NCBI RefSeq assembly: GCF_000014585.1
Contig: NC_008319.1
Span: 1,798,001 to 1,862,000, forward strand
DNA length: 64,000 bases
Reading direction: 5' to 3'
Origin: Synechococcus sp. CC9311
Lineage (GTDB): Bacteria > Cyanobacteriota > Cyanobacteriia > PCC-6307 > Cyanobiaceae
A program made the translations under genes and the position numbers. The notes below the pieces were generated by a model. That model did not search any database. It was given only the letters and a program-made list of their open reading frames with translations, and was not told the DNA's origin. Of the stretch, positions 44,037-49,155 are shown one piece after another. Positions within the stretch are counted from its first letter, which is position 1, and every line of letters starts with the position of its first letter.

Positions 44037-44573
44037 TTAAAATTTATTATTCAACCTGTAAATATCTAAGCGCAGGACTGGACCAAGAGACTGAGAGGGA
44101 GGCAGAGAAGGAGATTCGGGGTAAAAACTTGACGACCATTCATATATCCCCTGCCTTGGATTAATACTTGGAATAACGACACTAACGATCTGACCAGGCT
44201 TTACAGAAGGACTGAAGACAATCTCAGTGATTCCACGCTCATCATCAAATCGTATACTTGCAAGCCCTTTTTTTCCCCGCTTCCTTAGATTGTAAAATCC
44301 AGAATAAACCGTGAGATCTTTATCTCCCCACTTCCACCTTTCAGTGCCAGTGATTTGCGACAAAGCAATTCTTTCAAGATTTGCTCCAGCGTTGCTGGGC
44401 AGCTCTAATGAAATAACAGGATAAGATCTCTGATAAGAATTTGAGTATGAATTGTGAATGGAAATACTTCTAGGAGGATTTTCAAAAAACTCCTGACCAT
44501 ATAGCTCCGTCGAATGCGCACTCAAGGGCTGAGCGCAAAGGAAAAGGAGAGAGAGTGTGGCAGCCTTATTCAC
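44037..44573 (-). CDS. DUF2808 secreted protein
   Basis: A 178-residue precursor from a GTG start with a signal peptide (LSLLFLCAQPLSAHS). The mature part has the DUF2808 layout: YPVISLELPSNAGANLERIAL, FDDERGITEIVFSPSVKPGQIVSVVI, then NPRQGIYEWSSSFYPESPSLPP and a terminal LGPVLRLDIYRL. DUF2808 proteins are cyanobacterial, periplasmic or cell-surface, with unknown role. A second member lies at 60928. The gene is AT-rich. Confidence 0.8.
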   Translation of the reverse strand: MNKAATLSLLFLCAQPLSAHSTELYGQEFFENPPRSISIHNSYSNSYQRSYPVISLELPSNAGANLERIALSQITGTERWKWGDKDLTVYSGFYNLRKRGKKGLASIRFDDERGITEIVFSPSVKPGQIVSVVIPSINPRQGIYEWSSSFYPESPSLPPSQSLGPVLRLDIYRLNNKF

Positions 44574-45194
44574 AGGTTTATTTTTTTTGCGATTCTAGTA
44601 GACAACTCAAGGGAAGAGAGAGAAGCACAAAACAGGCGAATACATCTGACCTATCAACTCATTTCATAAGCAGATCTGGCAATTTCTATTGATCTTTTGG
44701 GACTACCTCATTGCAAACGCCAGGCATGAGCGAACAGCATGGCCTAGATCGCACGCCAATCGATCCTGCCATTTAGCTCTATCACTCTGATGCGTATCGA
44801 ACCAACAGTGACCTCACGATGCACTAACAGAAGAGGGGCCTGGCAATGGCAAGGATTCAACGCATGGGTTGGAAACCATGAACATGTATGAGTTGCGGAG
44901 AGCTGTTAATACCCACCAAAACGCAGCGCAAGCTCCAAGGCCCCATAACCAAAAAGAAATGTGCTGCCCAGCAGTGCCAACTCTCTTTTAGAACTTGCCA
45001 TAGAAAGAAGGGACAAACCCACCAGCGACACTCCAAAGAATCTAAAGGGAATCTGAAGATCCAATATTTAGAAAGCTATCAATTCAGCCACCACGAGGCG
45101 GCTGTTTACTCAAATTCATGAAAAACGCGTAACAAAGCGAGGTTTCAGGCCTTACAGCAATATTTCTATTTATTCCTGACGAGATGAAAATGAT

Positions 45195-45231
45195 TGAGCT
45201 CGAGCCGCAGCCCCATGCGATAACGAGCTCA
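45195..45231 (-). repeat. 8-bp inverted repeat downstream of the 15-codon ORF
   Basis: TGAGCTCG / CGAGCTCA with a 21-nt loop. On the minus strand it lies 45 bp after the tiny frame and is followed by AATCATTTTC, so it may end that transcript. Confidence 0.5.
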
Positions 45232-45276
45232 GTCCTTCTGGCTGACACGCTTCTTTGGAACGGGGGTTTTGGGGCC

Positions 45277-45324
45277 TCAGTCCAGATCTGTCAGAAGCAG
45301 GATCATCACCAACGCAAGCGCCAT
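45277..45324 (-). CDS. candidate 15-residue hydrophobic peptide
   Basis: ATG 45322-45324 to TGA 45277-45279, product MALALVMILLLTDLD. The ribosome-binding site GGGAGGA is 5 nt upstream, one of the strongest in the window. The peptide is nearly all hydrophobic with an acidic end. It may be a regulatory leader peptide or a membrane microprotein, or chance. I do not recognise it. Confidence 0.35.
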   Translation of the reverse strand: MALALVMILLLTDLD

Positions 45325-45655
45325 GACGTCCTCCCTTGAGTTGATTGTGCTTATCGAGACTGATGTGCTTTTTGCTGTCTTGCTTTCTGAGATTTACTAG
45401 CCAGACTTAACCATCTATCCGATTGTCCTTTTTGTCAGTCGATCGCAATTTGAGAGCCGTCGCAGCCAATTCGCCGGCAGACGCAGCCCGCCTTCAGCAG
45501 GAGGAGCGCCTCAGCAGTTCAAGGGTTCGCAGAACTCCGGTGTCGACGCGAACAGATCGCAGCGAGAGAGGAGCGGGCGCTCTCTCATAGGACTCTGGTT
45601 CTCATCCTGTTTCAACGCCAGCACAAGAGGAAGGATTAAGACAGCGCTATGGCAG

Positions 45656-45703
45656 TACCCCCACTGCTGGATTCGAACCGACGACCAACTGTTTAGAAAG
45701 CAG
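45656..45703 (-). repeat. diverged duplicate of tRNA-Arg 3' half (attachment-site remnant)
   Basis: On the minus strand this 48-nt stretch matches the tRNA-Arg(UCU) gene from the anticodon stem through the 3' end (48183-48230) at 41 of 48 positions, including an 18-nt perfect block (GGTCGTCGGTTCGAATCC). The seven differences break the acceptor side, and the 5' half is absent, so it is not a working tRNA. The same orientation as the tRNA is expected for the far attachment site of an element inserted at the tRNA 3' end. Confidence 0.82.
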
Positions 45704-46046
45704 CCAAAAGACCAGTCTCAATACTGCTTTTCATGTCGTGATCTTTGATGTGGGGGCTCCGGGGGGAGGACAAGCGAGACCCATGAACCAGCGATTTTGG
45801 ACAAAACATGGGGGGAGATGTGGTTTACCCAGTAAGTCAATGTCTGTCTCTGGACATCTTCGGGTAGCCGTACCCCTTAAGGCACATTGATATTGAAAAA
45901 ACAGCAACGGCTTGCTCATAGGGAGTCGCTTCTCCAATCACTGGACAGGAAGGGGTAAACGAAGCCAGTGGAGCTGATAAGGCCAACAAATTCAATATTT
46001 TAATTTGCCGCTAGTATTGACGGCAAAAAACACAATTAACCTGGGA

Positions 46047-47489
46047 TTATGATGCTATAACCTTGACTTCTAAGTATTCATTAACCCCCTCGGCTCCACC
46101 TTCTCTACCAGTTCCAGATAACTTATAACCACCAAATGGTGAGCCAGGAGCAATAAATGAATTATTGATATTTACGGAACCGCTTCGCAACAACCGTGCG
46201 ACTGTTTGCGCACGACCTTGGTCTAAAGTTTGAATATATGCAGCCAATCCATAAGCATTATCATTTGCTAATTCAATTGCCTCTTTTTCTGAATCAAACG
46301 GAATCATGCATAAAACTGGTCCAAAGATCTCTTCTCTCGCAATCTTCATAGTATTTTTTACATCTGCAAAGACTGTTGGGCGTGCAAAATATCCGACTTG
46401 GCATTCCTGAGGTTTCCCCAGCCCGCCTGAGATACAACGTGCTCCTTCTTCTAAACCACAAGCAATAAGTGATTGAACTCGATCAAATTGAATTTGGCTT
46501 ACCAATGGGCCCAAGTGATTTCCTGATTTTGTTGGGTCACCAACTGAGATACGCTCACACTTATCGTGAGCCAACTCAATTGATTTTTCATAAACTGAGC
46601 GTTCAACAAGCATTCTTGTCGCCGCATCACAGCTCTGGCCTGAATTTATAAAACATGCATCAATTCCTTGATCTATAGCTGTCGACAATTCACAGTCAGC
46701 AAAAACTAAATTTGGAGATTTACCTCCTAATTCGAGCGTAGTTTTGGCAATACGTTCGGCAGAATTGCGAATTATGCTACGTCCTGCTCCTGTAGATCCT
46801 GTGAAAGAAATCATGGCAACATTAGGATGTTTTGATAGGGCCGAACCAGCAACATTTCCTAGGCCATGAATCATATTAAAAACACCTTTTGGAACACCTG
46901 CTTCATGCATCACTTCAGCGAACAGAATTGCAGAAAGGGGGGTTAATTCTGATGGTTTTAACACCATTGTACAACCAGCAGCTAATGCTGGAGCAACCTT
47001 GAGAACAATTTGGTTAATTGGCCAATTCCATGGTGTTATGAGTCCACAAACCCCAATCGGCTCCATAACAATCGTATCTCCATTCCTAAGTTTTCGTTCA
47101 AACTTATATTCTTTTACATCATCAATCAAGGCTGACAGATGATCAATTCCTGCCTGCGCCTGTGCGCTTCTCGCAAAATCAATTGGAGCACCCATCTCCA
47201 TTGAGATTGCTGAGGCAAACTCATCAACTCTTTGCTCATAAATTTTAAGTATATTTTGCAACAAATCAATACGTTCTTCTACAGAAGAATGGCCAAAACT
47301 TTTAAACGCAATAGTTGCTGCAGCCACCACTTTTTCAACATCAGCATCACCAGCTAGCGCAATTTTCCCAATACTTTCTTCTGTAGCAGGATTAATTACC
47401 GAGAGCCTTTCTTTGCTGCTAGAGACCTCCCACTCCCCGTCAACATAAAACAATTGAAACTTATCAAAAATCTTATTAATTTCAAGCAT
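46047..47489 (-). CDS. NAD(P)-dependent aldehyde dehydrogenase
   Basis: A 480-residue member of the broad ALDH superfamily that oxidises an aldehyde to the acid. PWNWPINQI and KPSELTPLSAILFAEV form the cofactor site, SFTGSTGAGRSI the Rossmann loop, LELGGKSPNLVF carries the general-base Glu and NSGQSCDAATRM the catalytic Cys. EEIFGPVLCMIPFDSEKEAIELANDNAYGLAAYIQT completes the signature. The substrate is not deducible; closest in style are broad-range ALDH/betaine-aldehyde-type enzymes. The gene is clearly AT-richer than its surroundings and lies inside a tRNA-bounded islet, so horizontal acquisition is likely. A -10 box precedes it. Confidence 0.93.
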   Translation of the reverse strand: MLEINKIFDKFQLFYVDGEWEVSSSKERLSVINPATEESIGKIALAGDADVEKVVAAATIAFKSFGHSSVEERIDLLQNILKIYEQRVDEFASAISMEMGAPIDFARSAQAQAGIDHLSALIDDVKEYKFERKLRNGDTIVMEPIGVCGLITPWNWPINQIVLKVAPALAAGCTMVLKPSELTPLSAILFAEVMHEAGVPKGVFNMIHGLGNVAGSALSKHPNVAMISFTGSTGAGRSIIRNSAERIAKTTLELGGKSPNLVFADCELSTAIDQGIDACFINSGQSCDAATRMLVERSVYEKSIELAHDKCERISVGDPTKSGNHLGPLVSQIQFDRVQSLIACGLEEGARCISGGLGKPQECQVGYFARPTVFADVKNTMKIAREEIFGPVLCMIPFDSEKEAIELANDNAYGLAAYIQTLDQGRAQTVARLLRSGSVNINNSFIAPGSPFGGYKLSGTGREGGAEGVNEYLEVKVIAS

Positions 47490-47499
47490 TTAATAGAGT

Positions 47500-47541
47500 G
47501 ACAGCGTATTTTTTATTATACGTTGCTCAAGTCTCGCTGTC
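47500..47541 (-). promoter_or_regulatory. candidate promoter with flanking inverted repeat, upstream of ALDH
   Basis: On the minus strand a consensus TATAAT (47515-47520) lies 26 bp before the ALDH start. It is flanked by GACAGCG / CGCTGTC arms (47500-47506 and 47535-47541), a layout that could bind a repressor across the -10 element. No good -35 box is visible. Confidence 0.45.
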
Positions 47542-47802
47542 GACGAATCGAAAGGGTAAATCTTTACTGAGTAATGCTAGCGATCCATCCATGGCCTACA
47601 AATGAGACGACAACATTACCAATAAATCACAAAGCTAAATACACTATTGGCTTTATAATATAGTTTTTACAAAATAGGAATGGCCATGCAGATCTTGGCT
47701 CCCTCATTGACTCCAAGCATCGCCGGGGCAATCAATCATCGCCAAGCTCACAGGCTGGCGGTTGTTGATGAACCAGGAACCAAGGGGCTCCTTTATTTGT
47801 AC

Positions 47803-47994
47803 TTATTTTCCTTTGCTTCTGATTTCGTTCAGCACTGATCGCACAGCTTCACGAATGAAGCCACTGATTTTAATATTCGTGCTACGTAACCATTCATCGG
47901 CAGATTTGTACAAACGAACCTCGACAGGTTTCACAGAAGTGGGGTTAATCAGCGTCGGCAGACGCTTCAGCTGCCATGGCTTGTCGTCAGTCAT
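47803..47994 (-). CDS. small ribbon-helix-helix-like protein
   Basis: A 63-residue basic protein from ATG 47992-47994. VKPVEVRLYKSADEWLRSTNIKISGFIREAVRSVLNEI has the strand-helix-helix pattern of ribbon-helix-helix DNA-binding proteins (VEVRLY strand, then two helices with FIREAVRSVL). It lies inside the tRNA-bounded islet upstream of the ALDH gene. It could regulate the ALDH or be an antitoxin-like protein without a partner; neither is proven. Confidence 0.5.
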   Translation of the reverse strand: MTDDKPWQLKRLPTLINPTSVKPVEVRLYKSADEWLRSTNIKISGFIREAVRSVLNEIRSKGK

Positions 47995-48184
47995 TTGACA
48001 GCCCTATGTGGCGCTGTGCTGAGTTTGGCGAGTTAACGCGATTGAGAAGCTGCGCCGTGGTACGACGCGGCTTCGGGAAGCCTTTCACCCGAATGGACAA
48101 ACTTTTGAGCAAAACCCATTTCAACCCTTGGCAGCGGCCAAATTGAGAAAGGCCCAGCCCTGTGATGGACTGGGATTTGAGCTA

Positions 48185-48258
48185 CGCCCCCTGGCGGATT
48201 CGAACCGACGACCGACTGCTTAGAAGGCAGTTGCTCTATCCAGCTGAGCTAAGGGAGC
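48185..48258 (-). tRNA. trnR: tRNA-Arg(UCU)
   Basis: The minus strand folds as a complete cloverleaf: acceptor GCTCCCT / AGGGGGC (one G-U pair), D arm with AGCTCAGCTGGATAGAGC, anticodon stem ACTGC / GCAGT with loop CTTCTAA (anticodon TCT), and T arm GTCGGTTCGAATCCGCC. No CCA is encoded. Its 3' half is duplicated at 45656-45703, marking it as an integration site. Confidence 0.95.
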
Positions 48259-48324
48259 ATTCATCCATTTTGACAGTCGACGTACGCCACCCCGCTTAAA
48301 CTTAAGAGCTGTGCGGTATGAACG

Positions 48325-49155
48325 ATGGCCCCCAGCCGGCTTAACGACAGCCACAAGCAGGAAATTGTGGAGAAGTACCGCGCTGGAGAAACAAGCTCCC
48401 AGATCGCGGTGGCCTATGGCTGCAGCACCAACACGGTGAGTCGAACCGTCAGGTCCCTGCTAAGCCCTGAGGAGTACGCCAATCTCAAAGCCCAGCGTTC
48501 AGCCAAAAGCTCTGGTTTAGAGAGCCCTGGTCGCAAAAGCACGTCTTTAGAAGGCATCGTCCCTGAAATCAAGATCGCTGAAGACAGTCCTAGCGAGAGC
48601 ACTCAAACCAGCTTCGAAGACGTCACAACAGACGCCTCAAGTGCGACGAAAGAAGGAGGGGAAGAGAGCGATGGCAGTAATGGGAATGGCGATGGCACCA
48701 CCGAAACCCTCGCTCTCGATGACGCCGAAGATTTCAGCAGCGCTGACCTCGACGACAACCAGACCTTCAACACAGAGGACGAAAATGTCTTCCATGAAAT
48801 AGCGGTGCTGCCTGTAGACCTGCCTCAGGTCACCACCCAACAAGTCATTTGCCGACCCTTTGCCTCTGAACTTTTGCCAGACAGCGTGTACATGCTGGTG
48901 GACAAAACGGTGGAGCTCGATCCTCGACCGCTCAGTGAGTTCCCTGAATTGGGCCTCAGTGATCCCTCAGAGCAGCAACGCCAGGCCTTATGCCTCTATG
49001 CAAGTCCGAGAGCTGCTAAACGCCAATGCGGCCGCAGTCAGCGCGTGATCAAGGTGCCAGACACCCAGATCTTTGCGCAAACATCGTCATATCTGCTCGC
49101 TCGTGGCATCACCCACTTAGTCGTTGAGGGCTCCCTTTTTGCCCTCAAGTCCTGA
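48325..49155 (+). CDS. HTH-domain protein, marine Synechococcus type
   Basis: A 276-residue protein. Residues ~8-50 (HKQEIVEKYRAGETSSQIAVAYGCSTNTVSRTVRSLL) form a helix-turn-helix of the transposase/Hin type. Residues ~75-165 are acidic and Ser/Thr-rich, probably disordered. The C-terminal part has a conserved-looking region (CRPFASELLPDSVYMLVDKTVELDPRPL, QRQALCLYASPRAAKRQCG, RVIKVPDTQIFAQTSSYLLARGITHLVVEGSLFAL). I think homologues exist in marine picocyanobacteria, and a regulatory role is inferred from the HTH only. It begins 66 bp after the start of the divergent tRNA-Arg. Confidence 0.72.
   Translation: MAPSRLNDSHKQEIVEKYRAGETSSQIAVAYGCSTNTVSRTVRSLLSPEEYANLKAQRSAKSSGLESPGRKSTSLEGIVPEIKIAEDSPSESTQTSFEDVTTDASSATKEGGEESDGSNGNGDGTTETLALDDAEDFSSADLDDNQTFNTEDENVFHEIAVLPVDLPQVTTQQVICRPFASELLPDSVYMLVDKTVELDPRPLSEFPELGLSDPSEQQRQALCLYASPRAAKRQCGRSQRVIKVPDTQIFAQTSSYLLARGITHLVVEGSLFALKS

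Follow-up and report, generated by a model that had tools for sequence, protein, structure and literature searches.

We analysed a 64-kb window of DNA from Synechococcus sp. CC9311 (NC_008319.1, 1798001-1862000; positions in the window are counted from its first letter). Within this window, an islet lies between a tRNA-Arg(UCU) gene and a displaced copy of the 3' half of that gene. The features of the islet and its surroundings, from left to right, are:

44037-45598, no strand assigned: left flank, outside the islet, kept in pieces in six relatives; similarity to one of them, G006, ends at 45598
45599-45655, no strand assigned: junction from the left flank to the distal copy, where a two-gene block of relatives G011 and G024 is absent
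45656-45703, minus strand: displaced and decayed copy of the tRNA 3' half, the putative distal attachment (att) core, recognised by its repeat match to the tRNA
45705-45744, no strand assigned: putative element-side flank of the distal att copy, with CCAGTC-8 nt-GCTTTTC at 45712-45732, recognised by its likeness to 33 distal flanks
46047-47489, minus strand: complete open reading frame (ORF) of 480 aa for a predicted aldehyde dehydrogenase (ALDH; PF00171), the AT-rich cargo gene
47515-47543, minus strand: sigma-70-like promoter site before the ALDH gene, TCGACA-17-TATAAT, with 11 of 12 consensus matches (a consensus match only)
47803-47994, minus strand: 63-aa ORF, ribbon-helix-helix-like by eye only
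48184-48259, minus strand: tRNA-Arg(UCU), found with ARAGORN, the putative regenerated target gene, with the tRNA-side att core within 48184-48231; the same core lies beside the same HTH gene in relatives
48325-49155, plus strand: conserved HTH-domain gene (PF13384), the right synteny anchor, outside the islet

A preliminary description of this DNA had noted that the 3' half of the tRNA is repeated directly at 41 of 48 positions, with an 18-nt exact block, and both our count and a control with random sequences bear this out. The two 48-nt arms (45656-45703 and 48183-48230) are 85% identical and share the exact block GGATTCGAACCGACGACC; when the core is shifted by one base, the distal copy differs from the tRNA at 8 of 48 positions. 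The arms start 2,527 bp apart and bound a segment of 2,480 bp, and the 3' end of tRNA-Arg(UCU) faces the islet, as integration requires. We compared the same 48-mer with 60 random 64-kb sequences of first-order composition, in which the best match over all 60 trials was 30 of 48, and the repeat is thus far beyond chance. No third copy of the core (shifted by one base) was found on either strand of the window at up to 15 mismatches.

The product of the ALDH gene matched the PF00171 profile over positions 4-461 of 461 (E=1.4e-155), a match by which it is predicted to be a full-length member of the aldehyde dehydrogenase superfamily. Its best solved-structure match was PDB 3i44, and the 25 NCBIfam matches listed, of 43, were all below the cut-offs. 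The gene had been described as AT-rich with its own -10 box. Its composition agrees with this (GC 0.41; GC3 0.27, against a mean of 0.54 and sd of 0.075 for 46 mechanically chosen window ORFs of at least 150 aa, the ALDH gene included). A TATAAT is also found just upstream, although the six promoter-like sites in the region are not above the number in shuffled sequence (mean 4.7, sd 2.3). We observed that a DUF2808 gene adjoining the islet (44037-44573, minus strand) has a GC3 of 0.36, yet is common to relatives, so low GC3 alone is no proof of foreign origin here.

The second gene of the islet had been called ribbon-helix-helix-like. The 63-aa ORF does exist and has weak matches in 4 of 30 relatives, but it matched no Pfam, NCBIfam or PHROG family at E<=0.01, and the label describes its appearance only. 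The islet had also been said to retain no integrase, and our searches agree: the best hits inside it, by tblastn (E 0.18 and 0.96) and by a profile search with a working positive control (E 0.24), were taken as chance. Mobility genes other than an integrase were likewise not detected in the islet.

The HTH gene to the right of the tRNA was found in 29 of 31 genomes of the genus, that of CC9311 included, and the named records that carry it are mostly Synechococcus, Prochlorococcus, Cyanobium and related cyanobacteria. Because this gene is so widely kept, the site can be aligned across relatives, and we compared upstream regions of 7 to 14 kb each from 27 of them, using genome collections with one genome per species. 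The left flank of the window is kept in six relatives (G005, G011, G024, G027, G006 and G021), none of which has the ALDH gene there, and the first four have neither the displaced copy nor the ALDH gene in the fetched stretch. The left flank and the tRNA are about 0.95 kb apart in G011 and G024, and this interval contains two small genes, one for a pterin-4a-carbinolamine dehydratase (PF01329, E 6.5e-22 in G011) and the other a small ORF without a Pfam match. The sole dehydratase match in the CC9311 genome is 27% identical and lies elsewhere, and the 47-aa ORF of the block was not found in that genome by a search run without a positive control. The site is variable: the islet is a gain of the window, which is without the two-gene block of G011 and G024. 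An empty site had been predicted in relatives without the ALDH gene, and this was found in part, as G011 and G024 lack both the gene and the copy but are not clean at the 0.95 kb that holds their two genes.

A relative with the distal copy in place but without the ALDH gene had been named as the case that would speak against an insertion carrying that gene, and G006 and G021 come close to it. Both lack the ALDH gene but carry a displaced copy between the tRNA and the left flank shared with the window; the copies lie 5.4 and 3.2 kb past the end of that flank, with about 20 kb from copy to tRNA. Their element-side flanks, however, differ from that of the window: over 340 nt, G006 and G021 score 13 and 14 against it, with shuffle maxima of 15 and 16, and since the likeness does not exceed that of shuffles we take these copies to be other insertions. 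The comparison bears on an alternative in which the distal copy would stem from an older, unrelated integration and the ALDH gene would have entered later by other recombination. It is possible that G006, G021 and the window share one older copy, the window having lost sequence just there, to the left of the copy, and this would favour such separate events. Against them stand the dissimilar element sides and the four relatives that keep the left flank with neither copy nor ALDH gene, and we consider this alternative unlikely.

Extra copies of the tRNA 3' half, on the same side of the tRNA, were found in at least 12 of the 27 relatives, nine of them within the 7 to 14 kb fetched and three (G006, G021 and G003) farther out; this count is a lower bound, as the farther-out search covered part of the relatives. 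At the site itself, copies are stacked three deep in G012 and two deep in G028, which indicates that att relics can outlive their cargo and so adds to the case for a distal copy older than the ALDH gene. The exact core pattern occurs in 158 of 300 genomes of the family, in many of them twice or more, with the tRNA itself included in these counts. Within the genus, the 3' end of tRNA-Arg(UCU) is a hotspot of integration.

Integrase-like ORFs adjoin this tRNA in five genomes (G006, G027, G009, G003 and G016). They are 397-464 aa long, lie on the minus strand and have their upstream end 14-124 bp from the tRNA; a shorter integrase-like ORF lies beside the tRNA in G013. Both of the tRNA-adjacent ORFs that were scanned against PHROGs matched the integrase family phrog_1 (E 5.4e-12 and 2.6e-10). 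Three were scanned against Pfam, where two had no match and that of G003 reached 21.7 bits on PF00589 (cut-off 27.1). Four aligned tRNA-adjacent ORFs have conserved R, R, GH and Y positions, of the kind known from tyrosine recombinases. These genes also bear on the idea that the repeat is a partial tRNA duplication, produced by slippage or other recombination with no integrase involved. Such an event would be consistent with the repetition of the tRNA half alone and with the absence of an integrase from the islet. We find it highly improbable, given that the same part of the tRNA is repeated in 33 copies with distinct flanks, that scattered endpoints were not seen, and that integrase-like genes lie beside the tRNA or the copies.

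Many of the displaced copies elsewhere have a CCAGTYGTnGCA-nnGnTTTTC-type sequence at a fixed distance, and the distal copy of the window has its CCAGTC-8 nt-GCTTTTC in the same place. Compared with 33 distinct flanks elsewhere, the flank of the window had a mean of 13.70 matches of 40 (window mean 9.88, sd 0.99) and ranked 11 of 63,961; by a PWM of the same 33 flanks it ranked 55 of 127,920. These ranks are to be read with the way in which the set arose: the motif was first noticed, before testing, in a list that included the copy of the window, several of the 33 flanks are without the motif, and genomes beyond the genus were picked for having more than one core hit. On the tRNA side, the left flank had only a weak likeness to its equivalents elsewhere, at rank 2,136 of 63,961; the sequence on the outer side of the distal copy had none to its counterparts. 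Over 340 nt, the element side of the window matched none of five other element ends above shuffles (best, G022, 18 against a shuffle maximum of 20). Together, the displaced copies of relatives, the integrase-like genes next to the tRNA and the element-like flank support the insertion at the tRNA 3' end that the preliminary description had proposed.

To place the ALDH gene, we compared it with other genomes, plasmids and phages. Some match to it exists in 30 of 31 genomes of the genus at E<=0.001, of which only those of CC9311 itself (G000) and G015 are close; the others have 27-35% identity. The same two are the only matches at E<=1e-100 among 300 genomes of the family, and at E<=1e-140 CC9311 stands alone among 386 genomes of the phylum, a sample evidently without G015. 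The best plasmid match, at 64%, is from Leisingera aquaemixtae and adjoins ABC-transporter genes. In a tree of 15 rows, for which the outsiders sampled were all plasmid-borne, the CC9311 and G015 proteins grouped together (support 97/95), joined three alphaproteobacterial proteins (99/98) and stood apart from both picocyanobacterial paralogue groups. The foreign origin that had been suggested for the gene is upheld for the homologues sampled, as no grouping with picocyanobacterial homologues was obtained, and from its occurrence in these two genomes and its position in the tree we judge the ALDH to be foreign to picocyanobacteria. Phage records held only ALDHs of less than 60% identity to that of the islet. 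Viral contigs contained no relatives of the ALDH, of a tRNA-Arg integrase (L063) or of the 63-aa ORF in single-sequence searches, which reach close relatives only.

Between the CC9311 and G015 copies, dN is 0.11 and dS 1.45, the latter near saturation, which indicates constraint between the two. The G015 gene has a GC3 of 0.28 and lies elsewhere; the 19-kb stretch that holds it contains neither a tRNA nor, at up to 14 mismatches, an att copy. The gene therefore need not travel by the tRNA-Arg route, a further point for its having entered the window separately from the distal copy.

Our preferred reading, which we regard as likely, is that the islet (45656-48183) is the relic of an element inserted by a tyrosine integrase at the 3' half of tRNA-Arg(UCU). 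The integrase would have inserted the element into the 3' half of the gene; the element would have brought a new 3' half, so that the tRNA stayed whole, and the old 3' half of the host would have been pushed to the far end, where it then decayed. The integrase would since have been lost, while the AT-rich ALDH gene, of non-picocyanobacterial ancestry, persists with its promoter-like site. Both the crossover itself and the arrival of the ALDH gene together with this att pair are steps that we infer, and the role in oxidative metabolism that had been suggested for the gene is a putative one.

The relic could have become so small in more than one way, and we compared 31 att-bounded segments, including a second segment of G235a (8,457 bp, no integrase) and a G158 segment that is cut at one end. 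All 13 segments shorter than 5.39 kb, the 2,480 bp of the window included, lacked an integrase by the seed profile, and PF00589 searches of the genomes concerned gave no match inside them. An integrase was present in 11 of the 18 segments of 5.39 kb or more, and in 10 of these 11 it lay no more than 170 bp from an end. A single unit is common to G251 and G289, 96% identical into the flanking gene, and G034 and G090 share parts, so the 13 short segments are not 13 independent events. This pattern fits both deletion and movement in trans.

In the first of these versions of the relic reading, a larger integrase-bearing element would have lost everything but its ends and the ALDH gene, and we put its chance at about even. 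The frequent presence of integrases in the larger segments argues for it, as do the absence of the neighbouring two-gene block from the CC9311 genome and the changes in the distal core, which indicate that there was time for deletion; an integrase fragment that deletion might have spared is, however, not detectable in the islet. In the second version, which we hold to be possible at somewhat below an even chance, the islet would have arrived as a small unit lacking an integrase, with a different element at this tRNA supplying the enzyme in trans. The uniform lack of integrases in the short segments is consistent with such units, the distal cores of most of these segments are little changed, and on its element side the G003 segment, which has an integrase, is flanked by sequence like that beside the small G022 segment and beside a copy in G001. 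Weighing against it, short segments would under any mechanism less often have room for a gene of 1.2 kb, two of the 13 (G251 and G289) are a single unit, and no identical small unit was seen in unrelated hosts among the segments compared.

The CC9311 genome has three places that match PF00589, none of them in the islet. Against the alignment of tRNA-Arg integrases it gave weak matches only (E 8.5e-5 and 7.2e-4), in one 399-aa frame outside the islet (1780607-1781392). This frame is one of the three PF00589 places and looks like a common gene of about 400 aa found in many genomes. As there is no clear cognate integrase and the distal core is decayed, the islet has most likely lost the ability to move by itself.

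Extending movement in trans beyond this locus, we tentatively suggest, and think it rather doubtful, that small units of one to a few genes, none with an integrase of its own, may stack up at tRNA-Arg(UCU) in marine Synechococcus and relatives and share an element-side recognition flank. Larger neighbours would provide the integrases that move these cassette-like units in trans, each new insertion could change the T-arm sequence of the host tRNA, and the ALDH islet would be a decayed member of the class. If small units without an integrase do move in trans at this tRNA, abundant ocean phototrophs would be gaining genes by a route that is under-counted. The islet links a single accessory metabolic gene to the site by which it likely entered, and is by itself an ordinary relic.

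The reading of the islet as a further relic of a known kind, formed by a textbook mechanism, is well supported, and the islet falls outside the named families compared. In the outline of the Islander method given in PMC4383910, an island runs from an intact tRNA to a displaced 3' fragment that has the same orientation, and candidates without an integrase ORF are rejected. The islet resembles such islands in its intact tRNA gene, in the same-orientation displaced fragment on the 3' side and in its length of 2,527 bp, which is within the 2-200 kb range, but differs in having no integrase gene inside; an island finder that requires one, as Islander does, would miss such islets. The tycheposons of Prochlorococcus (Hackl et al. 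2023), as described in PMC10872708 and PMC10187409, are likewise cargo-bearing segments bounded by a tRNA gene in marine picocyanobacteria, whereas the islet has no tyrosine recombinase and measures 2.5 kb rather than the 4-200 kb given in PMC10872708. Tycheposons are listed among proposed, helper-dependent phage satellites in PMC11389934. In PMC10187409, a second element of picocyanobacteria is presented, which has a novel integrase and lies at tRNA-Phe or tRNA-Cys. By its description there, the tRNA-Arg integrases found here are alike in being divergent tyrosine integrases beside a tRNA, with variable islands, in the same organisms; the islet differs in lying at tRNA-Arg rather than tRNA-Phe or tRNA-Cys and in holding no integrase. 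Partial tRNA genes left by the integration of elements are reported in PMC9897764. Synechococcus islands in general are treated in PMC2441476 and PMC7522525, in the available parts of which we found no mention of the tRNA-Arg site, and our literature search found no paper that joins picocyanobacteria, an attachment site and tRNA-Arg.

Three further observations concern the tRNA and its copies. The T-arm of tRNA-Arg(UCU) (48193-48209 in the window) occurs in five versions among 28 genomes (in 15, 6, 3, 3 and 1 of them), and the version of the window, G005 and G015 has one unpaired T-stem position by manual pairing. The displaced copy carries a different T-arm version from the tRNA in G010 and G006, as would be expected of elements that swap the T-arm. 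Copies of the tRNA-Arg 3' half with an element-side flank also occur hundreds of kb from the tRNA-Arg gene, at G001:C1:859063 and at G007:C1:2723172 and 2728115 (L193, L191, L192, L205), which suggests that att-bounded units exist elsewhere in the chromosome too or were relocated by rearrangement. Finally, a 255-bp stretch at the tRNA (L116:14031-14285, matching the end of L130) is 95% identical in G010 and G021, and about 183 bp of it lie to the left of the core. The HTH genes of these two genomes are only 66% and 79% identical to that of the window, and the shared 255 bp may be the end of a recently transferred element.
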